This document shows positions 8,758 through 52,857 of a stretch of DNA of 64,000 nucleotides, in pieces. Made by a program: the position numbers and the translations under genes. Each line of letters begins with the position of its first letter. The first letter of the stretch is position 1. The notes under the pieces were generated by a model that made no database searches, was not told the DNA's origin, and saw only the letters and a list, made by a program, of their open reading frames with translations. The DNA is from Bacteroidota bacterium (GTDB lineage: Bacteria; Bacteroidota; Bacteroidia; Bacteroidales; JAAUTT01): NCBI GenBank assembly GCA_021779665.1, contig JAJYAG010000009.1, forward strand, positions 4,986-68,985, in the 5' to 3' direction.

Positions 8758-10152
8758 TTATTGTGACTCTTCGTAGTTCTTTATTTTATTGTACAGGGTT
8801 TTCCTGTCAATATTTAACTTTTCGGCAGCTTTGCTCTTATTAAAATTAACATCGCGTAAAACGCTCATTATGGTTTCATATTCAGCACGTGAAGCAGCAT
8901 CTTTTAAACCGAAATCCTTCTTAATAACAGTGGGTTCAGTTGCGTTCTCCTGCTTATTAATAAAGTGCGAAGGACTAATAATCTCCACTGGCAGACTACT
9001 CATGCCAACCAATCCTGATTTTGTAAGCAATACCGCTCTGCGAACAACATTTCTGAATTCGCGGAGATTGCCGGGCCAGGTGTAACGCATAAAAATATCC
9101 ATCACATCTTTATCAAACCCTTCAATTTTCTTGTTCAGTTCTTTATTGCTCTTATCGAGGAAAAACTCGGCAAACAAAGGTATGTCCTCACGACGGTTTC
9201 TCAAAGGAGGGATATTGATTGTAAATTCGTTAAACCTGAAATATAAGTCCTCACGGAATCTGCCATTCTGAACGGCTTCCTGCAGACTTTCATTCGAAGC
9301 AACTATTATTCTGATATCTAACGGCATCTCTTTAGTACCGCCAACTTTTTTAAACTTACGTTCCTGAATTACCCTCAGCAATGTGGCCTGAATATCGTAA
9401 GAGAGGTTAGACACTTCATCGAGAAAGATGGTTCCGTTGTTTGCTGCTTCAAAATGGCCTTCCTTATCGTAAAGAGCCCCGGTAAACGACCCCTTAACAT
9501 GCCCGAACAATGTACTTCCGGCAAGTTCTTTGGAAATAGCTCCGCAGTCGATAGCTACGAAAGGCTGACTGCTGCGGTCGCTGCGCTCGTGTATGGTTCT
9601 TGCAATAACTTCTTTACCTGTACCAGTTTCGCCATACAAAATAACACTGTAATTGGTCGGAGCCACAATATCAACCTGATTATACAAATCAAATGCAATT
9701 TTGGATTTACCAACCATATAGTTGCTATTATTCCCAACAGGAGTTTTCCTGGGTTTTGAAACCTGTTCTTCCTGCGGCTCATTAACAACTAATGAGGAAC
9801 TAGCAGCCGACAAAACATTAAGAACCTCATCGGGAATCAAAGGTTTTGCAATATAGTCGAATGCACCTGCTTTTATTACTTCAACAGCAGTTTTTATATG
9901 AGAGTAGCCTGTGATAATGATAACTACAGTGGCGGGATTAATCTTTTTTAATTCAACTAAAACATCTTTCCCATTTTTATCGCCCAACTTGTAATCACAT
10001 AACACAATATCATAATTCACTTCCTTAAACTTTGATATACCTCCGCTGGCTGTATAAGCGGCCTCCGCTTCGTAGCCGTTTTTGTTAAGGTAACGGGTCA
10101 GTAAGGAGCATATATCAGCGTCGTCATCAATAATCAGTACTTTTTTACCCAT
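8758..10152 (-). CDS. Sigma-54-dependent response regulator (NtrC family)
   Basis: 464 residues: receiver domain 4-118 with acidic DDD at 9-11 and phospho-acceptor D53; AAA+ domain about 145-375 with Walker A GETGTGKE, the sigma-54 contact loop as GSFTGA, Walker B TIFLDE and the arginine-finger region FREDLYFR; C-terminal Fis-type helix-turn-helix near 420-460 (NKSKAAEKLNIDRKTLYNKI). It activates sigma-54 promoters when phosphorylated. The loop is GSFTGA instead of canonical GAFTGA. The likely partner is the CHASE3 kinase 211 bases upstream on the same strand. Confidence 0.93.
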   Translation of the reverse strand: MGKKVLIIDDDADICSLLTRYLNKNGYEAEAAYTASGGISKFKEVNYDIVLCDYKLGDKNGKDVLVELKKINPATVVIIITGYSHIKTAVEVIKAGAFDYIAKPLIPDEVLNVLSAASSSLVVNEPQEEQVSKPRKTPVGNNSNYMVGKSKIAFDLYNQVDIVAPTNYSVILYGETGTGKEVIARTIHERSDRSSQPFVAIDCGAISKELAGSTLFGHVKGSFTGALYDKEGHFEAANNGTIFLDEVSNLSYDIQATLLRVIQERKFKKVGGTKEMPLDIRIIVASNESLQEAVQNGRFREDLYFRFNEFTINIPPLRNRREDIPLFAEFFLDKSNKELNKKIEGFDKDVMDIFMRYTWPGNLREFRNVVRRAVLLTKSGLVGMSSLPVEIISPSHFINKQENATEPTVIKKDFGLKDAASRAEYETIMSVLRDVNFNKSKAAEKLNIDRKTLYNKIKNYEESQ

Positions 10153-10214
10153 AGTGAATGGTTATTCGATTGCAATTATATTATTATTATTTTTTCAGTC
10201 AAATCTGTTCAAGG

Positions 10215-10222
10215 CAAAATTA
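10215..10222 (-). promoter_or_regulatory. Possible -7 element for the sigma-54 activator gene
   Basis: The minus strand reads TAATTTTG, an exact TAnnTTTG match, 62 bases before the start. No TTTG is found 19 bases further upstream, so only half of the promoter is supported. Confidence 0.35.
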
Positions 10223-10363
10223 CAATAAAGAATATGAAAAACGTTTGTAAAAGCCTTTTATTTAAAGGGTTTCCCTTATTTAATAGTTATTTGTTTAAAT
10301 CAAGCCCAAGTTAAACATTTTAAACGTAATTTGAAATCTGATATTTAGATTTAGTCCAAATTA

Positions 10364-11779
10364 TTATGAATATTGCTCAGCTTTCTCCAACTGTACTCCA
10401 GTTAATCGGAGTTTAAGGTAAATGAAAAACGTGGTTCCTTTTCCAGGTATACTCTCAAGTGAAATGCTTCCATTATGGTTTAAAATAATATTCTGGGTAT
10501 TTGTTAAACCCAAACCATTTCCGGCCTCTTTTGTTGTGAAATACGGCTCAAAAATTTTTGAAACCGCATCACTATCCATACCCGCCCCGTTGTCTTTTAT
10601 CGTAATAAGGCATAGTTGTTCACGATTTTCCACTTTAATTTCCAAAACCCCTTTATCAGGCTCCATAGCTTCAATTGCGTTCACAATAATATTCAGGAAA
10701 GCAAGCTTCATCTTTTCAGCATCCACTTCTACCTTCCCCGATTGTAAAGAATAATTCTTTATAATCTTAATTCCCTGAAGGTTAATACGGTCTGACGCAA
10801 GGTCAATGGTTTCATCAAGAATATCTCCGGGTGAAACCAGAGCCAGTTGAAGTTCAGAGAACTTTGTGGAATTCAGTAACTTAGAAATCAGGGTATTTAT
10901 TCGTTCTGAGTTTCTTTTAATAATATCAAGCAGAAAAGCGTTGTCTTCGTTATCGGCAATTGAATCTTTTAACTGATCGGTTGCCAGCGCTATACTGGTT
11001 AAAGGGTTCCTTATTTCGTGAGCAAGTGTCCTTGAAATACGACCGCTTATCGCAAATTTTTCTATACTTTTTAAATCTGTTAACTCCTTATTCGCAGTTT
11101 TCAGCTTTTCAATTCCTGCCTCGAGCTCCGACCTGTATATTTTTTTGGCTTTATTTTCTTTTTCAAAAGTTATCAGGGAAATAATAGCGAGAAAAATAGC
11201 CAGTACCAGAGATAGCAAATTGGTTATTTTAAGTGAGGCATATGTTTCATTATACTTTTTAACCCTGTCGAGTAGATTGGCCCGCTCATGGTCCTGCATT
11301 ATTTTCACGGTTTTACGGATATTACTCATGAGGTTCACTTCAGGAAACCCTAAACTTTCCATCATCTCAGGAGTAAGATTCAAATTATTGATTTGAACAA
11401 GTGCCCTCTCCATCAGGTTAGTCTTACTTTTTATCAAAGCTTTTATAAATTCAAGTCTGACTTGCTGAGTAGAATCGTTTGGAGAAATAAACCGGAGAAC
11501 ATTATATATGGAATCGGCTTTTTGCCTCACATTAAAATAGGGGCTTAGCAACACACTGTCGTGTGTCAAAGCATACCCACGAATACCTGTCTCAGCATCT
11601 TTCATTGCCGACACAAGTAACTCCAGATTAAAGATGGTTTCGTTAGTACGATCGACTGTCTTCGATCTTTTTTCCATCTCAAGTGTATTGAGATAAATGA
11701 GAAAATACGAAACTAATAAGATACCAAAAGCCAAAACATATCCATTTCGTACTTTTTTCTCCGACTGATTAATTTTCAT
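10364..11779 (-). CDS. Membrane sensor histidine kinase with CHASE3 domain
   Basis: 471 residues. Transmembrane helices at about 14-31 and 185-205 bracket a periplasmic CHASE3-type helical domain (DAETGIRGYALTHDSVLLSP near 61). After a short linker come the HisKA domain with H254 in TLAHEIRNPL and a HATPase domain with the N box (NIIVNAIEAM), G1 box (DNGAGM) and G2 box (GNGLGL). It should autophosphorylate and pass phosphate to the NtrC-type regulator encoded next on the same strand. The signal for this CHASE3 domain is unknown. Confidence 0.92.
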   Translation of the reverse strand: MKINQSEKKVRNGYVLAFGILLVSYFLIYLNTLEMEKRSKTVDRTNETIFNLELLVSAMKDAETGIRGYALTHDSVLLSPYFNVRQKADSIYNVLRFISPNDSTQQVRLEFIKALIKSKTNLMERALVQINNLNLTPEMMESLGFPEVNLMSNIRKTVKIMQDHERANLLDRVKKYNETYASLKITNLLSLVLAIFLAIISLITFEKENKAKKIYRSELEAGIEKLKTANKELTDLKSIEKFAISGRISRTLAHEIRNPLTSIALATDQLKDSIADNEDNAFLLDIIKRNSERINTLISKLLNSTKFSELQLALVSPGDILDETIDLASDRINLQGIKIIKNYSLQSGKVEVDAEKMKLAFLNIIVNAIEAMEPDKGVLEIKVENREQLCLITIKDNGAGMDSDAVSKIFEPYFTTKEAGNGLGLTNTQNIILNHNGSISLESIPGKGTTFFIYLKLRLTGVQLEKAEQYS

Positions 11780-26819: not shown

Positions 26820-28319
26820 ATGTATTTCAGAGCCACTTTTATCGCGTTAGGGGTATTTACCTTTGTGAGTCTTCATTCTCAGACTAAAACCGTTTATTAT
26901 AATCAGTCTCCGGAATATTCTTCCATACATCGAATATACGAGGGTGTAGTAATCCGGGTAACCGACAGCATACCTGTGCCCGGGGTTGAAATATCGGTTG
27001 ACAGGCTTGGTACTGAGGTGTATACAAACAGCGCCGGTTACTTTAAATTTGAAGCTCCGGAAAATATTTCGGCAATAAATCTTAAAAAAGAGGGCTTTAT
27101 AGGTGCCAGAGAAGTTATTTTGGGAAATAATAAATTCGAAATTGCCATGTTCCCTGAAAATCCAACCAAAACAGAGGAACAGCTCATCCAAAAAAGCTAT
27201 GTGCTTACAAGTTTTAACGATTTATCAGGAGAAAGTCTCAAGGCTAACGAGTCCAGGTTGAAGTCGATGCTGAAAACAGAGGTTCCCGCTGTGATCAGAG
27301 TGCTGATGCCCGACAATACAGTTGTTGTGATGAGTACGGACGAATACCTGAAAGGTGTTGTACCTGCTGAGGTTCCTGCAAGCTGGGACATGGATGCTCT
27401 AAAAGCCCAGGCTGTTGCAGCCAGAAGTTACGCAAGTGTTAACTTTAAACATAACAGTCAGGGTGCCGATGTTTGCACAAGCACCCATTGTCAGGCATGG
27501 AAAAGTACTCAAAATGAACGGACTACTCAGGCGGTGAATGAAACCTCAAATTTTTCGGTCAAATACCAGGGTGCGATCATCAATGCTTTATTCTTCTCAC
27601 ATTGTAACGGTACCACCCGAAATAATGAAAGCGTTTGGGCCGGAACTCCGGTTCCATACCTCAGAAGTGTCAGCTGTCCCTGCGGGTTTACAGCTCATAA
27701 TGCCCATGGAGTTGGAATGTGCCAATATGGTACTCAGGCAATGGCTTTGAAAGATTCGACCTGGGAAAGCATTTTAAAATGGTATTACACAGGAACCACA
27801 GTAGATAAAACCCAGCTCGTATATGGAACCCTCAAAGGCGCTATTTACCAAGGAAGTGATAACACCAACCTCAGTAACAGAATTACCGGAGCAACTGTTA
27901 CACTCAACAACGGATTGGAAGTAACTTCAGCTAATGAAGGCCTGTACAGCTTTGATATTGTTCCTGGTCAATATACGGTTACAGCATCAAAACCGGGTTA
28001 CAGAAGTGCAGCCGTAACCCGGGATATAACGGCAGGGAACACCATCTGGGGCAGTATTGAATTAACGCCTAATGTAGGTATTTCAGATTTACCGTCACAA
28101 AATGTGATAATTTATCCTAACCCGGCAAGGGATCATTTCAATATTAATATTAGCGAAGAAGCAAATGTAACAATCACTAATTTGACCGGTCAAATTAAAT
28201 ATAATGGTAAAATTAGGAATAAGAAATTAGATATCTCCCAATGGCAACCTGGCATTTACATCATAAAAATCACTGATTCGGGATATTCATTTACTGATAG
28301 GTTAATTGTCACAGAATAG
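26820..28319 (+). CDS. Secreted SpoIID/LytB-like protein with T9SS type A sorting domain
   Basis: 499 residues. After a signal peptide (about 1-20) comes a carboxypeptidase-regulatory-like beta domain (40-110). A SpoIID domain spans about 165-330, with YLKGVVPAEVPASW (E184 in the place of the catalytic glutamate), LKAQAVAARSYA and HNAHGVGMCQYGTQAMA. A second regulatory-like domain follows (335-420), then a sorting domain from 428 with YPNPARDHF and a final LIVTE. SpoIID cleaves glycan strands lacking stem peptides; LytB-like relatives stimulate amidases. Cysteines are present in the core (CTSTHC, CPC). A T9SS tag means export across the outer membrane, where peptidoglycan would not be native. 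A terminator follows. Confidence 0.86.
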   Translation: MYFRATFIALGVFTFVSLHSQTKTVYYNQSPEYSSIHRIYEGVVIRVTDSIPVPGVEISVDRLGTEVYTNSAGYFKFEAPENISAINLKKEGFIGAREVILGNNKFEIAMFPENPTKTEEQLIQKSYVLTSFNDLSGESLKANESRLKSMLKTEVPAVIRVLMPDNTVVVMSTDEYLKGVVPAEVPASWDMDALKAQAVAARSYASVNFKHNSQGADVCTSTHCQAWKSTQNERTTQAVNETSNFSVKYQGAIINALFFSHCNGTTRNNESVWAGTPVPYLRSVSCPCGFTAHNAHGVGMCQYGTQAMALKDSTWESILKWYYTGTTVDKTQLVYGTLKGAIYQGSDNTNLSNRITGATVTLNNGLEVTSANEGLYSFDIVPGQYTVTASKPGYRSAAVTRDITAGNTIWGSIELTPNVGISDLPSQNVIIYPNPARDHFNINISEEANVTITNLTGQIKYNGKIRNKKLDISQWQPGIYIIKITDSGYSFTDRLIVTE

Positions 28320-28377: not shown

Positions 28378-30804
28378 TTATTTCACAAACTTCAACCTTA
28401 AACTATTCGATACCACAGAAATTGAACTTAACGTCATAGCAGCTCCTGCAATCATAGGGTTGAGCATAAAGTGCCAGATGGGATAAAGTGCTCCTGCTGC
28501 CACCGGAATTCCGATAACATTGTAAGCAAAGGCCCAGAAAAGATTCTGTTTGATAGTTCTCACGGTTTTTTTCGAAAGCATCAAAGCCTGTGATATTTTT
28601 TGAAGGTCGGAAGAGATAATTGTAATTTTAGCTACATCCATTGCAATATCCGACCCGCGCCCCATGGCAATACTGACATCGGCCTGCGCCAATGCCTGCG
28701 CATCGTTAATACCATCTCCTGCCATTGCGACCACCCGTCCTTCTTTTTGCAGCTGATTGATGATTTCGTGTTTTTCCGACGGCAATTTCCCGGCATAAAC
28801 CTTTTGAATATTCACTCTGCGAGCTATAACTTCCGCAGTTTTTGGCTGGTCGCCAGTGAGCATAATTACTTCAATGCCGGCATTCTGAAGACTTTTAATT
28901 GCGTCAACCGAGGTTGGCTTAATACTGTCCGATACAGCAAATATGGCAATTAGCTTCCCCTTTGCAGCAAAGTAAAATACAGTGGCAGCCTCATTCTGCC
29001 ATTCATCGGTTATTACCAAAACTTCGGCGGGAATAGAAACTTTATAATCGTTCATCAGTTTATCGTTGCCTACCAGGTAAGCTTCGCCTGAAAAAGTGCC
29101 TTTAAGGCCTTTTCCTGCAATGTTTTCTATTGCGACTTCTCCTGAAGAAGTGGTATAACCTTTTCCTTTCAGAAAAACTGCTACTGCTTCGGCAAGAGGG
29201 TGCCCCGACTGCTTCTCCATTTGCGCAAGCACGGCTAAAGAATCTGTATTGTCCGTATCTTCGTTTAAAAGGTAAAAATCAGTTACCGAAGGCTTCCCGA
29301 GAGTTATGGTACCTGTTTTATCAAGAACCACGGTATCAACTTTCCGAGCAAGTTCCAGACTTTCAGCGTCTTTAATCAGGATACCCATTTCAGCTCCTTT
29401 ACCTACACCAACCATAATTGCAGTTGGGGTTGCCAGTCCAAGTGCACAGGGACACGCAATAACCAAAACGGTAACCATAGCAACCAATCCCATGGTTAAA
29501 GCATTATCGCCCCCAAATACTAACCACGAAATAAAAGTCAGAATGGCTATTCCAATGACCACCGGCACAAAAATACCAGCAATTTTATCGGCCAGTTTCT
29601 GAACAGGAGCTTTACTACCCTGGGCTTCCTGCACCATTCGTATAATTCCGGCCAGCAAGGTTTCGCTTCCAACTTTGGTAGCCCTGAAAACAAAACTGCC
29701 TTTTTGATTGATTGTTCCTGCAAATACCTTTGCATCCACTGTCTTTTCAACCGCCAGAGGTTCGCCGCTAATCATACTTTCGTCGACAAACGAGCTTCCC
29801 CTGACGACTACACCGTCAACAGCGATTTTATCGCCTGGCTTTACAACAATCAAGTTGTCTATAGCAACCTCTCCTATTGGAACTTCTGTTTCGTGTTCGT
29901 TATGGCGGAGAACCGTGACTGTTTTGGGCTGCAATCCGACAAGTTTTTTGATAGCTGAAGAAGTATTGGCTTTAGCACGTTCCTCCAGCATCTTTCCCAG
30001 TAAAATAAAAGTAACTACAACTGCGGCGGCTTCGAAATAAACATGATTATGAACGCCGGCTTTATGCAGCACATGCGGAAAAAAAGTTGCAAAAGCACTG
30101 AAGACCCAGGCTATACCGGTACTAAGAGCCACCAGGGTATCCATATTGGATGTAAAATGTTTCGCCTGCTTCCAAGCATTAATAAAGAAATTACGGCCAA
30201 ACCAGAATACAACCGGGGTGGACAAAGCCAGCATGATATAGTTGGCATAAGGCATGTTCATAAAAAACATCCCGATTACTACCACCGGAACTGTCAATAA
30301 AGCCGAGTAAATTGTTTTTCGCTTTGTCTCAGCCTGATAGTTTTTTCGGGAATCTTCAAGAAGCTGATCGGCATTCTCTTCCTGTACTATTAAATCGTAA
30401 CCAATGGATTGAATTACTTTCTTCAGTTCACCGGGGTTTGTTGTACCCGGAACATAGTCGACCAGAACGGTACTTCCGGCAAAATTTACTGCAGCATCAA
30501 TTACTCCGGGCTGCGATTTCAGCATGGACTCCACACTAAGAGCACACCTTGCGCACGACATGCCTGTAACCGGATAAGTCTTTTTCACACTCGTAACATT
30601 AAAACCTGTTTCACGAATTTTATTTACAATTTCAAATGTAGGCACATTGCTTCCATTCGTTCCTATAACAGCTCTCGAATTGTTGAGTTCAACCTTGTGC
30701 GAAATTATTCCGGGAATTGTCCCTAGCGCTTTATCAACCTGTATTGCGCAATGTTCACTTCCCATACCTGTTATCGGAAGGATAATTTTGTCCGTTGCTT
30801 CCAT
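28378..30804 (-). CDS. copA: Copper-exporting P1B-type ATPase
   Basis: 808 residues. HMA domains lie at about 6-70 and 76-140. The second has the metal motif C84-A-R-C87; in the first the motif is S16-E-H-C19, so one Cys is missing. Eight membrane helices include the CPC metal site in ACPCALGLATPTA. The catalytic core has DKTGT, the SGHPLAEA His-Pro motif and GDGIND. The CPC plus two HMA plan marks Cu+ export to the periplasm. The start at 30804 has a normal MEATDK. The upstream minus-strand AraC-type regulator probably controls it. Confidence 0.93.
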   Translation of the reverse strand: MEATDKIILPITGMGSEHCAIQVDKALGTIPGIISHKVELNNSRAVIGTNGSNVPTFEIVNKIRETGFNVTSVKKTYPVTGMSCARCALSVESMLKSQPGVIDAAVNFAGSTVLVDYVPGTTNPGELKKVIQSIGYDLIVQEENADQLLEDSRKNYQAETKRKTIYSALLTVPVVVIGMFFMNMPYANYIMLALSTPVVFWFGRNFFINAWKQAKHFTSNMDTLVALSTGIAWVFSAFATFFPHVLHKAGVHNHVYFEAAAVVVTFILLGKMLEERAKANTSSAIKKLVGLQPKTVTVLRHNEHETEVPIGEVAIDNLIVVKPGDKIAVDGVVVRGSSFVDESMISGEPLAVEKTVDAKVFAGTINQKGSFVFRATKVGSETLLAGIIRMVQEAQGSKAPVQKLADKIAGIFVPVVIGIAILTFISWLVFGGDNALTMGLVAMVTVLVIACPCALGLATPTAIMVGVGKGAEMGILIKDAESLELARKVDTVVLDKTGTITLGKPSVTDFYLLNEDTDNTDSLAVLAQMEKQSGHPLAEAVAVFLKGKGYTTSSGEVAIENIAGKGLKGTFSGEAYLVGNDKLMNDYKVSIPAEVLVITDEWQNEAATVFYFAAKGKLIAIFAVSDSIKPTSVDAIKSLQNAGIEVIMLTGDQPKTAEVIARRVNIQKVYAGKLPSEKHEIINQLQKEGRVVAMAGDGINDAQALAQADVSIAMGRGSDIAMDVAKITIISSDLQKISQALMLSKKTVRTIKQNLFWAFAYNVIGIPVAAGALYPIWHFMLNPMIAGAAMTLSSISVVSNSLRLKFVK

Positions 30805-30886
30805 AGTTCTTATTTTTTATTTTGATACAAATTTCGGAACTCCGGGAAGGTTAGTTGTTATAAAATTTATGTGGGGGTTTACAGAA

Positions 30887-30959: not shown

Positions 30960-31517
30960 TTAAATCTCGTCGAGCCCTTTACGATGATGGTTTTTGAGGT
31001 TTTTAAATTCGGTAGGCGAGAAACCGGTAACCTGCCGGAACTGACTGCTAAGATGGGCCACGCTGCTATATCCAAGCTCCCAGGACATCTGCGAAAGTGT
31101 TAGTTCGTTATAAACCAGCCATTCCTTAATTAATTCCACTTTTAGAGCTATGATATATTTTTCGATGGTGCTGTTTTCCATTTGCGAGAAAAGGTGACTT
31201 AAATAATTGTAATCGCGCTGAAAATGATCCTCAAGAATAGCAGAAAGCTTGAGTTTTTGCTCCGAAAGATTTCCCTGCCGGGTGTACTGCAGGAGAAAAG
31301 TTTTGATTTCGCTCACAAGTTTTGCCGATTTTTCCTCCAATAGCTCAAATCCATTGTTTTTAAGAATTTCCGAAATTTTGGCCAAATCAGGGTTCTGACT
31401 AGTTATTACAACCTTTCCAAGTTCAATATCTTCAACAATAAACCCATTCGTCGTAAGTTCTTCGTTTACCACACGGATGCAACGCGGGCAGACCATATTC
31501 TTAATAAAAAGTTCCAT
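30960..31517 (-). CDS. AraC-type regulator with N-terminal CxxC metal-binding-like domain
   Basis: 185 residues. Residues 1-65 look like a ferredoxin-fold HMA domain (MELFIKNMVCPRCIRVVNEE), with CxxC at C10 and C13, a VITS strand and an ILKNNGFELLEE ending. Residues 80-185 form the AraC helix-turn-helix, with the segments LSQMSWELGYSSVAHLSSQF and VTGFSPTEFKNL. It is encoded upstream of copA on the same strand, separated by 155 bases, and probably activates copA on binding copper. The metal-sensing role is inferred from the motif and neighbour. It lacks the AraC cupin domain. Confidence 0.85.
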   Translation of the reverse strand: MELFIKNMVCPRCIRVVNEELTTNGFIVEDIELGKVVITSQNPDLAKISEILKNNGFELLEEKSAKLVSEIKTFLLQYTRQGNLSEQKLKLSAILEDHFQRDYNYLSHLFSQMENSTIEKYIIALKVELIKEWLVYNELTLSQMSWELGYSSVAHLSSQFRQVTGFSPTEFKNLKNHHRKGLDEI

Positions 31518-32504: not shown

Positions 32505-32683
32505 ATTGTATTGTTCTTCAGGGGTTAAATCCCGGTAAAGCAACATTTGGAACTCCTTATAACAGTACACAGGGATTCTCTTATGATACAGCCCTGTTTC
32601 TTTTTATTATCACCCTGGCTGCAGGTTTTTATATTGCCATCAGAGTAAAACAAAGTCTTAACAAATCCCAAAAAGAAGATTAG
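32501..32683 (+). CDS. Small possible single-helix membrane protein
   Basis: 60 residues starting in an ATGA overlap with the previous stop. One hydrophobic helix near 30-47 (TALFLFIITLAAGFYIAI) is followed by a charged tail (KQSLNKSQKED), giving a type III-like topology. No family is recognised. The stop overlaps the convergent DUF116 stop by four bases. Coupled translation and the clear membrane helix are the only support. Confidence 0.48.
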   Translation: MNCIVLQGLNPGKATFGTPYNSTQGFSYDTALFLFIITLAAGFYIAIRVKQSLNKSQKED

Positions 32684-33807
32684 CCCACAACCCGCTGCAA
32701 CTGTTCCTCGCTTATATCGGTAGGAATTCCGTTTTTATGCCAGTGTTTTTTACATCCGCAATAGTCCAGAAACACACATTGCGAAGGAATATTCAGCTTT
32801 TGCATTTCGTATCCGCCTTTGAGAAGATTCAATACACAGGCAACACCAATTAATCCTGTAGTTTCCTGATTTTTCCAGTATTTCAGAAAACGTGTAAAGT
32901 CTGACGAATGAGGTATCAAAACAACTTCAGTATCTTCTGTGGAATACTCCCATCGTTTAATATTGATGTTGCATTCGGGAGAACAGCCCGTGCAAACCAT
33001 TTTCGAACCTTTTACCCTGGCTTTACATTTACCGTCGGAAGGATTGCTCATGCAGGTCGGAAGTAAAATCACCTTTTTGGAAGTTTTCTGAAATACAGGC
33101 TTTAAAGCTCGGTTTAAAATCTCTGCACCAAACATATTCAGGTGATATTCAACTTCATGCCTTCCACAGAAAATATAATTTTCTTTAAACTTATGTTCCT
33201 GTAAATGGTTCTGACGAAACGATTTTACATTTTCGGTAAATTTCCCAAGGTTTGCTTTGGCAGCGACTTCAAAGTCAGAAGCTTCGAGGCTTGCATTTTC
33301 CAGAATTTTGCATTGCTCTTCCATCGGCAACCGAATCAAATAACTTTGCCAACACTTCAATCGTAACGTTTCTTCCGAGAATTCACCCGTAGCATCCAGC
33401 CATTTTATAAAATGGTTTAATCTGCTGTACGAATCAATTTTTACACGGTTAAAAGTTCTGTTTAATAAAATGGTCGACAAAACTCCCCGAAGCTTGTCAA
33501 TGGCTGGCTTCAGAACTTTGTAACGACTCCGGCCTTTATACAAAATATTAAGAAATGCCATACCCAAGCCGGTTGATGACATTGCATTGGAAGAATATTT
33601 ATTCAACAACACTCCGAGTGTAAGATATTCCAGGTAATGTTCATCGAATGTTCGGGTAGTATCTTTACTTTGAGCGGCTATAAAATCTTTAATATAATGA
33701 AGTGTTCTCTCCGTACGTTCCTCCAGAACAGTGGATGAAAAGTCAGAAAGCTCCTCGTAAAAAGGTTGCTCAGTTGCAATATTCAGTTTGTATGTAATTG
33801 TCTCCAT
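32680..33807 (-). CDS. DUF116 domain protein
   Basis: 375 residues. The N-terminal 220 residues are helical and not recognised. The C-terminal part matches DUF116, with a cysteine-rich segment (LPTCMSNPSDGKCK and VCTGCSPEC), then IGVACVLNLLKGGYEM and FLDYCGCKKHWH. At least nine cysteines in the last 130 residues suggest a bound metal or iron-sulfur cluster. DUF116 proteins occur in archaea and anaerobic bacteria and have no settled function. A promoter of good quality lies 25 bases upstream. Confidence 0.82.
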   Translation of the reverse strand: METITYKLNIATEQPFYEELSDFSSTVLEERTERTLHYIKDFIAAQSKDTTRTFDEHYLEYLTLGVLLNKYSSNAMSSTGLGMAFLNILYKGRSRYKVLKPAIDKLRGVLSTILLNRTFNRVKIDSYSRLNHFIKWLDATGEFSEETLRLKCWQSYLIRLPMEEQCKILENASLEASDFEVAAKANLGKFTENVKSFRQNHLQEHKFKENYIFCGRHEVEYHLNMFGAEILNRALKPVFQKTSKKVILLPTCMSNPSDGKCKARVKGSKMVCTGCSPECNINIKRWEYSTEDTEVVLIPHSSDFTRFLKYWKNQETTGLIGVACVLNLLKGGYEMQKLNIPSQCVFLDYCGCKKHWHKNGIPTDISEEQLQRVVG

Positions 33808-46561: not shown

Positions 46562-49500
46562 TTATCTAAGCAATGTTACATCACCTGCTTTATTGAAACT
46601 TGAACCGTTATAGAATTTCCCCTTTGCTTTCCAGATATAAACATCCGACTTACACAACTTACCTTTGTAATAGCCGTCCCATCCAATTTTCACATCCTTC
46701 GTTTCGAATAATAATTCGCCTAAACGGTCATAAATTTCGAGTTTATATTCAGCAATTCCGTCATGGTGCGGATGAAATACCGTGTTCTTAATATCGGGAA
46801 GTGTATACTTTCCATCACCCGGACCATCTGTACTTGGTTTAAATGCATTCGGGAATATCAGAACACCAGTTCCCTTTACTTCCACAGCACGCTGCATTAC
46901 AACTGAGTCGAAGCATTGATGCTCTGTCCATACATTTAAAGTTATATCGTAAAAACCAAGTTCTTTGTATGTATGTGACGGCTCAAAAACATCGGAAGTA
47001 TCACCATCGCCAAACTCCCATAGATACCTGTTTCCAAGTTTACTTGTATTATAGCAATGTACAAGGGCATCGGGAAGCATAACCTGCCGTGGCGAAACGT
47101 CGAAGCTGACCTCCGGTTTCGGATAAACTACCACTTCACGATAAGTAACATCCTCCGGTCCATCGCCATAGGTCGTAAGTTTTACCTGATATTTTCCGGG
47201 TTTATTATAGATATGGTTAGGATGCATTTCTGTTGAAACAGAACCATCATCAAATTCCCATTTATAGGTAGTAGCCCATGTACTGTGATTTGTAAAAGCT
47301 ACCGTTAAAGGTACACATCCGTTATCGCTTGCATCAAAATCGGCAATTGTTTTTGGAGCAAATACCCGTATTCTGTGACTTGCCGAATCAGAGCAATGAT
47401 TACTCCATACATTCAGTTTGATATTGTAATTGCCCCATCTTAAATATTCATGAACCCCGGGTTCCATAACGGTTGTAGTTTGTCCGTCGTCAAAATTCCA
47501 GAAATAATTCCAGTTACCCGGATTGGTCTGATTGTCAATATTAACCCTTGCATCGGGATAAAATAAATGCGAAGGCAAAGCTGAAAAATCAACAGTAGGT
47601 TGCGGGTAAACAGTTACCTGACGGAACATGGTATCGGAACAACCAAATTGAGAGAAGCCAATCATCCGGACATTAAAGGTGGTGTCGTCGATAGAACTGT
47701 TAAAGAACCTGTGGGTGGGATTTTTTAATGCGCTTGTAATGTTATCACCAAAATCCCATTTGTAAGTGACTGCACGCAAAGTTCTATTTACCATTGGAAC
47801 TAACAACGGACTACATCCGGCAGTATCCGGAGTAAAGTCAGCAACAACACGGGGGTAAATATTAATGCTTTGCTGAATCTGATCGGTACAATTATGAACC
47901 GATTGTACAAACAACTTCAGATCGTAAGTAATAGTGGTCGGTTTTAAATTATCATATATATGCGTAATGGGGTTCAGATCAGTTGAAAGAGTTGAATCTC
48001 CATCACCAAAACTCCAGTAATAATAATCGCCAGCCTCCGATAAATTGCGGATTGGCAAATGGAACGGAGGACAATTTACAGAATTATCAACATCTAATAA
48101 AGCCTTTGGCTTGGCATAAATTGTAACCTTTTTATTAATTGTGCTGGTACAATTGAAAATAGAAGTTGCTGTAAGCGAAAGATTATAAACAGAATCAACA
48201 TTACTGAAATTGGTATAAGTATGTTTAGGACTTGTAATCACAGAAGTTCCCATATCGCCGAACACCCAATTATATCTGTTTGCATTGCGCGATTGGTTTG
48301 TAAATGCTATTTCTAAAGGATGACAGCCTCTTAGTGTGTCTTGGGTAAATGCAGCAGTAACTTCCGGGAACACCTGCAGTGACAAACTTGTGGTATCCTG
48401 GCACTTTCCATTATAACTTGCAATTAATCTGGGATAAAAAGTTTGAGGAGTCGTACCCAGATTTCGATAAGTATGGGTAAACACAGGAGCTGTGACATTC
48501 GACTGCTGTCCATCTCCAAAAATCCATTGAAAACCGTTTGATCCGGCTGAAGAGGAATTGGTTATGGAAATAGGATGTGGAGAACACCCAACGGGTTTAT
48601 CGAACGAAAAACCAGCTTTTATAAATGGATAAACTTTAATACTGACTGTTGAAGAATCCACACAATTATAAATGGAATAGGCTTTGAGTTTTGTTGTAAA
48701 AGTACGTTCACTCGATGTTAAATTTTCGAAAGTATGAGAAGGACTTTTAGTAACAGCCGAACCACCATCACCAAAAAACCATTGATAGGAAACAGGGACC
48801 GTTCCCGGACCAGATTGATTGGTGTAATTAACTTTCAAAGGATTACAACCTTCGGTAACATTGCTTGTGAAAGTCGCTTTTACTTCGGGATAAATTGTAA
48901 TCTGAATGGAATCGCGGCTTTTGCAGATTCCATTTGTATTACTTGCAATTAACCGGAGATTCCTCCTTAATGGCTGATTCGACGGGTTATTTAACGAATT
49001 GTTAATATAAACATGCGAATAATCTATGGATGAGTGATTATCAACAGTTCCATCATCGTACATCCACTGGTACTGGGTTATACTTCCACGGGAGGAATTA
49101 TGTATTTTAACTTCATATGGCGAACATCCTTTTACTGAATCAACAGAAAACTTAGCTTCTACATAAGGATAAACATTTATATTAATGATTGTATCATCAA
49201 TACAGTTATATTCAGATGTTACGGTTAGTTTAACCGGATAGACCTGCGTTGTATTTGTGGTATTTGAAAATATATGTTCAGGATTCTGAAGTGTTGAGGA
49301 GGTATTATCCCCAAATTCCCATTTGTAATATTTTGAAACATTATTTAAATAATTCGATTTGTTGGTAAAATTTACAGGCAATGGATTACATCCGATAATA
49401 ACATTAGGCGCAAAATCAGCTTTAATTTCAGGATAAACAGTAATACGCTGCATAACAGAATCCCTGCAGCCTCCGCCGTTTTTGACAACAACTTTAAGCT

Positions 49501-52500
49501 GGGGCGCAAAAACGACACTGGTGGTATTACGGTACCTGTGAATTGTATCTATAACGGAATGATTATCGGAACTACCATCGCCATATTTCCATTCATAACT
49601 TACTATTCCGCCCCGGGATTTATTCTTTATTGCGGCATTGAAAGGAGCGCAGGCGGATGGAACATCAACCGAAAACTGCGGATCCAGAAACGGATGTATT
49701 ACAATATCCCTTTCAGCATAACCATTGCAATATTCGTTCGACATGCCCGTCACTTTTACTTTATAAGTTTTATCAATGGTTGTTAAATTCGTAAATAAGT
49801 GACTGGGATCTTTAACTGTTGAAGTATTCCCATCGCCAAAGTCCCATAAATAAGAAGTGATAGCCTGTGCGTTGGCCGAAGAAGTAACAAATTCTATCAA
49901 TGTTGAATCGCAATAGTTATTATTAATGCTGGTAGGCAAACTGATAGAGGATTTTAGGACCGGTACAAAACTCAATGACGTTTGGGGGTAAACAGTAATC
50001 TGACGCGATACGGTATCAGGACACCCAGTATCATATTGATGACGAACAGTAAGCTTAAGCTTGTAGTTAACCGGTGCGGCCGTTGTGTTGGCAGGATAAG
50101 TATGAATCAGCGTATCGTTATTTACAGTCCGCGTAACCCCATCACCGAAATCCCACAGATATTGACTTATAGCGCCTTTATTAAGAGAGTTATTCTTTAT
50201 CCTGATAGTCAGAGGACTGCATCCACGAACCGTATCAACAGTAAAACTTGCTTTTACAAAAGGATATACTTTTACAGTTGCTGTTGCAGTATCGCGACAG
50301 TAATAAGGAGAGGTGGCAACAAGACTGACATTATAAGTTGTATCGGTTGCCCGGAATAAATTCTCAAAAATGTGTACCGGATTTTTATCAGGAGCTGTAC
50401 TTCCATCGCCAAAATTCCAGTGATACAGAGAGTCAGCAACATTCCCGTTCGACATATTCCTGAAATTCACAATATTGGGGTTACACGAAGTGGTGTCTTT
50501 CGGATAAAAATTTGCATTAATGGTTGGATATACCACAATTTGCTTAGTAAGGGTATCCGGACACTCGCCAAAATATGAGGCCCGAAGCTTATAGGTGTAT
50601 ACGATAGGGTTGTATGGGGAGGTATTATTCTGAAAACTACCTGTTGCAGGTTGAACAAAACTGGTTTGAACCGGCGGTGTAAAAACAATGGGTGGATTAT
50701 TGTCCTTTTTATAACTCCATTCATATTTTGTTGCTCCAATCGACTTATTTGTAACGTTAATGTTAAAAGGAGCACAAGCAGCGGTTTTGTCGGTTTCAAA
50801 ATAAGCTCTCACCTCAGGCAGAACTCTTACAGTAATTTTCAGGGTATCGTCGCCAAAACATTTTGATTGCCGCACTACCACGTAATAATCGTGAACTCCC
50901 GGAGGACAGAACACCTGTGGTGTGGACACCTTCTGATTGCTAAGGTAAGTGGGCGGACCACTTGGTGTACCATAATGCCATGTATATTCCAGACCGCCAT
51001 TGGCACGTAAAAATACAGTATCGCCAAAACAACTGACATGTGATGTTTCATTCACCGACGCCACCACGGCGGAAGCCATAGTTGCATTAAATGAAGAAAA
51101 ATATCCATACTTGTTGGTTTGCCCGCTAAACCCGTTGGTTATCCCCAAATGGAAAAAGTCCTTTTCATTAACTACCCTCACCGCCTGGTTTATAGGAATT
51201 AAAGCACCAATCCCGGAATTTCCCCTGTAGTTTTTATGTAAAACAACCCATCCTGCCGAATCCACAGGCTCAAACCATTCCGGAGGAATCGGTTTGCTTG
51301 TATTATCCTGATAATAAATTGTAAAATAATTATGAGATTGTGTAGGAGAATTTAAAGGAATGTTTTTGTCATAAGGAATCATCAGATTCATGGTCATAGA
51401 ACTGCTACCATCGGAAGCGATACTTGACCGGAAAAAAGAAACTTCATTGGAGCCGGTACAATTGGTGATAGGAGGCAGTACGGCTCCTCCCATTTCGCAG
51501 CCTATACCTGTAATGTGAAAAACATATATCGGTTGGGTGGCAAAAATATAGATAGAGGTCTGATTATCATCGTTAATATCGGGAGTTACAAAAGTTGTCT
51601 GTTGGGCATTTATTGTGGTACTATACAACAACGACCCATCCTTCTTTCTAAAGAAAATCTGTGTCCCGGGTTGTGTGGCTGTAACAATAATCTGTTCGCC
51701 CCGTTCCGGCTGCTGAACACCTGCGGGTGCTGCCGCAGTTGATGCATTACCAGTCATTACCAGGTATTTGTTGCCAATTACATTTGTAGGAATTATTTGA
51801 TCACCCAGAATATCATAACAAGAATAGGAAGCTACAGGAACAGAATCGTCATTTATTGTAATTGCAATAGGTTTATTACTGGTAACCCTGGTGCCCGACA
51901 AATGTCCCTTTGCCGTACGGCTGTTGGCTACCATCGAATATGTTTGACCTTTATTGAGAGTAACAGAATAAGAAGATAGATCGGTCCTTCCTTTTATGAG
52001 GGCTGTTGGGTAAACAGTAATAATGGTTCCATCTTCAGTAGCCACAATATTTGCGCTCGACAAAGGGCTATCCGGAGAATATTTGGCTGGAACAGAGTCG
52101 TTATTCCATATATTCTGAAACGGGAGATAAAAATCCACTCCCAAAGAGTTTCGGCCTTTTAACGAAAACAGATCCCTGTTATAATAGTTATCATAGTCAT
52201 AGTAAACAGTAATCTCGTTATTCGACTTAATATAAATACCCCTGTTTGTAATTCCTGTTGTGGCTGTGACATTATAAGCAGAGGGATTTGCATAAATATC
52301 GCCAAAGGTAGGAAAGCTGTTAGCCATTAGCTGACTATAACTCTGACTCGGAGGGATATCAATTACCTTTGTAACAAAGGAAGGGTTAGCCGGCATCGAA
52401 ATTTCAACATGAGCAGTTACAACATTGGATTGGTTTGTAATTTTAAAACTTACATTATTGGCATTTGTAATAGACCCATGGTTATTTGTTTCTTTTGGTA

Positions 52501-52603
52501 TAGCAAACCAAAACTCCTTATCCACCTGGGCATGTAATATGTTGAGGCTAAAAAAGAAAAATCCAAGCGTAATAAAACACTTTTTCACAAGGCAATAGTA
52601 CAT
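46562..52603 (-). CDS. Giant PKD-repeat surface protein with T9SS type B sorting domain
   Basis: 2,013 residues from the ATG at 52603; an ATG at 52636 would add 11 residues before the signal peptide. After the signal (ending NILHAQ) comes an IgGFc-binding-like domain at about 20-390 (KEFWFAIPKE, GIYIKSNNEITVYYDYDN). A cysteine-bearing Ig-like unit and about 15 PKD domains of about 85-90 residues follow; 14 show the WxFGDG-type core. The C-terminus is a CHU_C gliding-type domain (FPNAFKPSTDGPGDGKY to the end). It should be exported by T9SS and act as a cell-surface adhesin, together with the PorP/SprF gene next to it. Confidence 0.92.
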   Translation of the reverse strand: MYYCLVKKCFITLGFFFFSLNILHAQVDKEFWFAIPKETNNHGSITNANNVSFKITNQSNVVTAHVEISMPANPSFVTKVIDIPPSQSYSQLMANSFPTFGDIYANPSAYNVTATTGITNRGIYIKSNNEITVYYDYDNYYNRDLFSLKGRNSLGVDFYLPFQNIWNNDSVPAKYSPDSPLSSANIVATEDGTIITVYPTALIKGRTDLSSYSVTLNKGQTYSMVANSRTAKGHLSGTRVTSNKPIAITINDDSVPVASYSCYDILGDQIIPTNVIGNKYLVMTGNASTAAAPAGVQQPERGEQIIVTATQPGTQIFFRKKDGSLLYSTTINAQQTTFVTPDINDDNQTSIYIFATQPIYVFHITGIGCEMGGAVLPPITNCTGSNEVSFFRSSIASDGSSSMTMNLMIPYDKNIPLNSPTQSHNYFTIYYQDNTSKPIPPEWFEPVDSAGWVVLHKNYRGNSGIGALIPINQAVRVVNEKDFFHLGITNGFSGQTNKYGYFSSFNATMASAVVASVNETSHVSCFGDTVFLRANGGLEYTWHYGTPSGPPTYLSNQKVSTPQVFCPPGVHDYYVVVRQSKCFGDDTLKITVRVLPEVRAYFETDKTAACAPFNINVTNKSIGATKYEWSYKKDNNPPIVFTPPVQTSFVQPATGSFQNNTSPYNPIVYTYKLRASYFGECPDTLTKQIVVYPTINANFYPKDTTSCNPNIVNFRNMSNGNVADSLYHWNFGDGSTAPDKNPVHIFENLFRATDTTYNVSLVATSPYYCRDTATATVKVYPFVKASFTVDTVRGCSPLTIRIKNNSLNKGAISQYLWDFGDGVTRTVNNDTLIHTYPANTTAAPVNYKLKLTVRHQYDTGCPDTVSRQITVYPQTSLSFVPVLKSSISLPTSINNNYCDSTLIEFVTSSANAQAITSYLWDFGDGNTSTVKDPSHLFTNLTTIDKTYKVKVTGMSNEYCNGYAERDIVIHPFLDPQFSVDVPSACAPFNAAIKNKSRGGIVSYEWKYGDGSSDNHSVIDTIHRYRNTTSVVFAPQLKVVVKNGGGCRDSVMQRITVYPEIKADFAPNVIIGCNPLPVNFTNKSNYLNNVSKYYKWEFGDNTSSTLQNPEHIFSNTTNTTQVYPVKLTVTSEYNCIDDTIININVYPYVEAKFSVDSVKGCSPYEVKIHNSSRGSITQYQWMYDDGTVDNHSSIDYSHVYINNSLNNPSNQPLRRNLRLIASNTNGICKSRDSIQITIYPEVKATFTSNVTEGCNPLKVNYTNQSGPGTVPVSYQWFFGDGGSAVTKSPSHTFENLTSSERTFTTKLKAYSIYNCVDSSTVSIKVYPFIKAGFSFDKPVGCSPHPISITNSSSAGSNGFQWIFGDGQQSNVTAPVFTHTYRNLGTTPQTFYPRLIASYNGKCQDTTSLSLQVFPEVTAAFTQDTLRGCHPLEIAFTNQSRNANRYNWVFGDMGTSVITSPKHTYTNFSNVDSVYNLSLTATSIFNCTSTINKKVTIYAKPKALLDVDNSVNCPPFHLPIRNLSEAGDYYYWSFGDGDSTLSTDLNPITHIYDNLKPTTITYDLKLFVQSVHNCTDQIQQSINIYPRVVADFTPDTAGCSPLLVPMVNRTLRAVTYKWDFGDNITSALKNPTHRFFNSSIDDTTFNVRMIGFSQFGCSDTMFRQVTVYPQPTVDFSALPSHLFYPDARVNIDNQTNPGNWNYFWNFDDGQTTTVMEPGVHEYLRWGNYNIKLNVWSNHCSDSASHRIRVFAPKTIADFDASDNGCVPLTVAFTNHSTWATTYKWEFDDGSVSTEMHPNHIYNKPGKYQVKLTTYGDGPEDVTYREVVVYPKPEVSFDVSPRQVMLPDALVHCYNTSKLGNRYLWEFGDGDTSDVFEPSHTYKELGFYDITLNVWTEHQCFDSVVMQRAVEVKGTGVLIFPNAFKPSTDGPGDGKYTLPDIKNTVFHPHHDGIAEYKLEIYDRLGELLFETKDVKIGWDGYYKGKLCKSDVYIWKAKGKFYNGSSFNKAGDVTLLR
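46890..50870 (-). repeat. PKD domain array within the giant surface protein
   Basis: About 15 repeats of 250-280 bp, each encoding a W-x-[FY]-[GD]-D core and a YP turn near the domain end (VYPxV, IYPxV). Fourteen cores are clear, as LWDFGDG, EWKYGDG, KWEFGDN, QWMYDDG and similar. One unit near the N-terminus (EWSYKKDNN) is degenerate. DNA copies have diverged, so this is an old array. Confidence 0.75.
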
Positions 52604-52857
52604 ACTTCTTGAAATAATGTTTTGTAAAAGCAACATTCCGACATACGTTTTTAATGTTTACGAAAGAATGTTCCTAAAAGTTATGGGCAAATAGCAAAGA
52701 ACCTGCTTAGAATTTAGTATATTTTTAAACACTGCCCGAATATTCCTGTAAAATCAAAAGTAGTCCCTCAAAATAAACCTCTGGTCAAAAATTATGAATA
52801 GTTGCTAACTTTTACTGCCCAAACCGTATAAAAATTAAATTGTCATTAAGAAGATAA

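Follow-up and report, generated by a model that had tools for sequence, protein, structure and literature searches.

A predicted one-component copper sensor in Bacteroidota: an AraC-family regulator with a metallochaperone-type head upstream of copA

Described copper sensors and the comparison with this locus

Among one-component copper sensors, the standard examples are CueR (MerR family), CopY and CsoR. Copper and other soft metals are also bound by the CxxC sites of heavy-metal-associated (HMA) domains. The AraC family consists mostly of activators, and AraC itself occupies a direct-repeat site, araI1-araI2, with a spacing of 21 bp. An AraC-family regulator whose copper response requires CXXC, YbtA, has been described from the Yersinia high-pathogenicity island; it responds to copper-yersiniabactin via a larger Cys-rich domain and controls siderophore genes, not a copper pump (PMC8725597). 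A survey of marine bacteria reported no copper systems in Bacteroidota other than two-component and ECF-sigma ones (PMC10141476).

The window analyzed here is a 64,000-nucleotide stretch of a Bacteroidota bacterium genome (contig JAJYAG010000009.1). It contains a 185-aa ORF on the minus strand, starting with ATG at 31517, whose product combines an HMA-like head with an AraC-type DNA-binding domain (Table 1). As predicted here for the regulator, CueR, CopY and CsoR control a copper P-type ATPase from the cytosol as one-component systems that rely on cysteines; their folds and operators are unrelated to those of the HMA-AraC proteins. The C-terminal DNA-binding domain is common with the AraC/XylS members AraC, SoxS and MarA, and the apparent direct repeat at HMA-AraC loci has the spacing of araI1-araI2. 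However, the head of AraC is a sugar-binding cupin-like domain, and SoxS and MarA have no head. The fold and the CxxC loop of the regulator head are shared with CopZ, Atx1, ATP7B and the N-termini of CopA. Unlike these chaperones and pump domains, the head is fused to a DNA-binding domain, and its family carries the loop N-M-V-C-x-R-C in place of the usual G-M-x-C-x-x-C.

The preliminary description had regarded this design as different from the MerR/CueR, CopY and CsoR sensors. The Pfam matches agree: they contain only the AraC HTH, with neither the CsoR/RcnR domain (PF02583) nor the MerR N-terminal HTH. No CsoR gene was found in the window's genome, and of three MerR-type genes elsewhere in it, the one examined (113 aa) has no cysteine. 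CsoR is present in 61 of 198 Bacteroidota genomes, mostly within one family; therefore, the gap filled by HMA-AraC is not universal. The regulator also differs from the YbtA type, with a 61-residue HMA head and a copA neighborhood instead of a large Cys-rich ligand domain and a siderophore neighborhood. No published description of the HMA-AraC family was found in the open-access literature, which was the literature covered.

The placement of the regulator directly upstream of a copper ATPase, as first described with no strand given, was confirmed by the ORF positions and by the Pfam and sequence motifs of copA. The copA gene is the next gene on the same strand, co-oriented and 155 bp 3' of the regulator gene. 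Its 808-aa product is a P1B copper P-type ATPase with two N-terminal HMA domains, in whose sequence the CPC, YN and MxxSS motifs were read. The assembly has no second close copy of this copA; the P1B ATPase that comes nearest to it is 37% identical. On the other side of the regulator, a divergent gene encodes a TerB-like protein. Elsewhere in the window, positions 26820-28319 (+) encode a SpoIID-like protein that carries a carboxypeptidase-regulatory-like repeat and ends in a T9SS-type C-terminus (by eye), and positions 32680-33807 (-) encode a 375-aa DUF116-domain protein with a cysteine-rich C-terminal half.

Table 1. Features of the regulator-copA locus, in window coordinates
Feature	Position	Strand	Evidence
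HMA-AraC regulator gene, 185 aa	30960..31517	-	ORF; Pfam AraC HTH; two-domain AlphaFold2 model; relatives in at least 183/395 genomes
HMA-like head, residues 1-61	31335..31517	-	AlphaFold2 model; structure alignment to Atx1/CopZ; family profile vs PDB HMA chains
C10-P-R-C13, putative metal-site motif	31479..31490	-	Sequence; C10 and C13 unchanged across the 30-protein alignment
Linker helix and AraC-type DNA-binding domain, residues 62-185	30963..31334	-	Pfam HTH_18 1.6e-12; Z 14.4 to 6swi
Predicted operator TTCTGTAAACCCCCACATAAATTTTATAAC, direct repeat with 21-bp spacing	30857..30886	-	Matrix match; spacing peak over 44 loci
TTTG core, predicted -7 promoter element of copA	30828..30831	-	25 nt after operator; spacing shared with other loci
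Predicted target gene copA (P1B copper ATPase, two HMA domains)	28378..30804	-	

Domain structure of the regulator

The N-terminus of the regulator reads MELFIKNMVC10PRC13IRVV, with C10-P-R-C13 as a CxxC in the first loop, the position that it occupies in HMA domains. Across 30 aligned proteins, in which 28 of the 29 relatives were 43-51% identical to the window protein and one was 30% identical, C10 and C13 were invariant and I-K-N-M-V-C-x-R-C was nearly so. The CxxC is therefore not a chance occurrence.

An HMA-like CxxC head fused to an AraC domain had been proposed from the letters of the sequence, and the AlphaFold2 model, structure alignment and family profile all upheld this proposal. 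The model (pLDDT 88) showed two domains, the AraC part being helical. In the head, it placed a strand at residues 2-6, a helix at 11-23, strands at 27-32 and 35-39, a helix at 45-54 and a strand at 58-60. Residues 1-70 were to be compared with HMA domains, and a prediction of no ferredoxin-like fold over residues 1-65 would have counted against the proposal; the fold predicted over residues 1-61 is the babbab ferredoxin-like fold of the HMA domain (PF00403). Residues 1-60 aligned with Atx1, GolB and CopZ in VIA-align at Z 8-9 and rmsd 1.7-2.0 A over about 60 residues.

The head was not named by single-sequence searches of Pfam, NCBIfam and the PDB; it was named by the family profile and the structure model. 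The profile built from 30 family members matched PDB HMA chains of ATP7B (1e-12) and CopZ (6.5e-5). The window protein gave no match to PF00403 over the Pfam curated cut-off, and 15 of the 30 members matched it weakly (E up to 1; best 2.6e-4). By the model, the head is thus an HMA-like fold that lies outside the curated Pfam boundary.

In the C-terminal part, residues 102-172 matched HTH_18 and HTH_AraC (7.6e-7), both over the Pfam cut-offs. Residues 62-185 aligned with AraT (6swi) and, at Z 11.6, with the AraC DNA-binding domain. Pfam and the structure alignment thus agree on a DNA-binding domain with two helix-turn-helix units, as in AraC/XylS members. A search for viral structural relatives returned only phage AraC-domain proteins and weak matches.

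Family distribution, neighboring genes and predicted operator

Relatives were found by genome search in 183 of 395 sampled Bacteroidota genomes, which is a lower bound with the best eight candidates scored per genome. The named loci include Flavobacterium, Chryseobacterium, Pedobacter, Chitinophaga, Pontibacter, Prevotella and Ignavibacteria, and relatives on plasmids are annotated only as AraC family regulators or HTH proteins. The HMA-AraC design is therefore not rare, and the window gene does not stand alone but belongs to a large family that has no name. At three loci (L068, L086 and L102), two tandem HMA-AraC genes that are 35-40% alike precede copA; the second, close behind the regulator at about 10001-10560, also carries a CxxC. 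A paired or heteromeric sensor is possible at these loci.

The survey of gene neighbors found a phylum-wide linkage to copper pumps. Of 80 related loci, 56 had a CopA-matching P-type ATPase within the sequence covered, in most cases as the next gene downstream and with the same orientation; the set was partly gathered by the motif KNMVCxRC and so cannot test the cysteines. At other loci, the regulator adjoins an HMA-bearing ArsP-type permease, an HMA-MauE protein, a multicopper oxidase, an RND pump or a DUF326 protein. When the pumps were sorted by motif, C-x-R-C members lay beside P1B-1 (Cu) pumps in 55 cases, all but a few. Every C-S-H-C member that has a pump (6/6) adjoins one of the CPC-GLVIS, DxG type found among Zn/Cd pumps, although these members form one clade and the link counts as one evolutionary event. 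Because this clade adjoins Zn/Cd-type pumps, metal choice varies within the family.

Whether the cysteines follow the metal genes was read from a census that disregarded the cysteines and took every family member of 20 genomes plus two paralogues of the window's genome (82 distinct proteins); the genomes were picked among paralogue-rich ones, so that its percentages are not phylum-wide rates. A recognized metal gene was nearby on the same strand for 29 of 60 members with both cysteines and for 0 of 22 without the pair (Fisher p 1.2e-5). About half of the cysteine-bearing members had no recognized metal neighbor in this crude motif test. Homologues that lack the CxxC and still adjoin copA would have argued against a metal-sensing role; none of the 22 adjoined copA or another recognized metal gene. 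A receiver-domain gene adjoined 12 of these 22, compared with 1 of the 60 cysteine-bearing members. The cysteine state changed only about four times on the tree, with one pair on supported branches, which left a phylogenetically independent test without power; the link between cysteines and metal neighbors is thus suggestive and does not amount to an independent contrast.

The HMA fold seems to be reused without metal in the cysteine-less members. At L147, L149, L150, L158-L165, L167 and L192, such members sit immediately 5' of genes for receiver-domain (LADDDEDDR) proteins and sensor kinases. Two paralogues occur in the window's genome. In one (L118:3941-4528, +), the metal loop is largely deleted (NIVCPD), and this paralogue sits among Ku and LigD-like end-joining genes (names by eye). 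The other (L118:10656-11249, +) keeps C-N-Q-C and has lost the first strand; its neighbors, by eye, are ferritin-like, DUF4142-like and YtxH-like stress-type genes, and no metal gene was seen among them.

The gap between regulator and pump contains a direct repeat, roughly TnTTRYAAA N12 TTnTGTAAC. A scan of repeat distances in 44 gaps gave a peak at 21 bp (z 9.7 vs dinucleotide shuffles), the runner-up being 11 bp (z 4.1). The 21-bp repeat is a putative direct-repeat site two helical turns long, as expected of AraC/XylS proteins. An operator matrix was trained solely on gaps before pumps and then run on 21 held-out loci that have a different metal target. For 18 of them, the top-scoring site anywhere in the locus fell in the gap between the regulator and the metal gene (0.09 expected), and 81% of these gaps reached 10 bits compared with 5% of 220 control gaps. 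Conservation of this predicted operator in the regulator-copA gap argues for a direct link in regulation, which extends the preliminary description.

In the window, the operator score was modest (10.5-10.7 bits leave-one-out, shuffle p 0.0016). The highest-scoring matrix match anywhere in the window (51297, minus) falls within the coding frame of a 2024-aa protein and was discounted as a chance match; this protein (46562-52636, -) has PKD-like repeats and a gliding-motility-type C-terminus (by eye). Genome-wide, the strict operator pattern gave 5 matches, compared with 6 in the reversed control. Since this is no excess, no wider regulon is claimed in the window's genome.

The -7 promoter element of Bacteroidota is TAnnTTTG. 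In 27 of 42 loci, the window included, TTTG follows the repeat after exactly 24 or 25 nt, and an A stands three bases before TTTG in 27 of 27. The TTTG and its upstream A thus match part of the -7 element. A TTG in the -33 region was present in 3 of those 27 loci.

Proposed mechanism, alternatives and meaning

The best model is a one-component cytosolic Cu(I) sensor, with an HMA and an AraC domain, that activates copA; we give it a probability of roughly 0.78. When copper rises, Cu(I) would be bound by C10 and C13 of the regulator, to which it might be delivered by exchange between HMA domains, the way chaperones and pumps exchange copper. Metal-loaded regulator molecules would then occupy both half-sites, which lie 21 bp apart in front of copA. 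Of these, the one nearer to copA would cover or abut the -33 region of a TTTG -7 promoter that mostly has no recognizable -33 box; hence, the bound regulator would recruit RNA polymerase and turn copA on. An activator geometry is suggested because tandem half-sites two helical turns apart sit just upstream of a -33-less promoter. We infer the binding of Cu(I), its effect on DNA affinity or on activation, the number of bound molecules and activation itself.

The same sensor and operator could instead serve repression: the apo-protein would keep the copA promoter shut, and Cu(I) would lift this block. A site over the -33 region could equally well keep RNA polymerase out. Against this, the TTTG -7 core, the -33 TTG missing at most loci and the rigid operator spacing fit an activator that replaces the missing -33 contact, and the AraC family is mostly one of activators. 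Release of a repressor is the rule by which CopY and CsoR control copper genes (PMC10141476), and the repressor version, which suits the promoter geometry less well than an activator, is unlikely on balance.

Two other alternatives concern the signal. A different soft metal (Ag(I), Zn(II), Cd(II) or Hg(II)) might be the inducer at the window locus, as the binding range of HMA CxxC sites and the C-S-H-C clade beside Zn/Cd-type pumps, with metal choice differing within the family, would allow. However, the window pump has P1B-1 (Cu) motifs and C-x-R-C pairs with P1B-1 pumps bar few cases, which makes an inducer other than Cu(I) quite improbable. Still less credible is a CxxC that works as a thiol redox switch or is purely structural, with the regulator sensing oxidative stress or something else. 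The cysteine-less relatives beside receiver-domain or stress genes indicate that the fold can work without metal; yet the cysteines of the window protein belong to the metal loop of an HMA fold of the chaperone type, do not vary among the aligned relatives and are never absent beside a metal gene in the 82-member census.

HMA-AraC appears to be a phylum-wide metal-sensor type, an AraC-family regulator with a metallochaperone-type sensor head. In a broader proposal, to which we give even odds, the HMA-AraC proteins would be the general one-component soft-metal sensors of much of Bacteroidota in place of CueR, CopY and CsoR. The loop would set the metal (C-x-R-C for Cu, C-S-H-C for Zn/Cd), the head would take metal directly from chaperones or pump domains of the same fold, and the cysteine-less branches would have been rewired to two-component and stress signaling.

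Such a family would explain cytosolic copper sensing in many copA-bearing Bacteroidota, and an AraC-type member would join the bacterial metal-sensor folds. It brings a concrete predicted operator and promoter for testing. Furthermore, the transfer of metal from chaperone or pump domains straight to a regulator of the same fold becomes testable.
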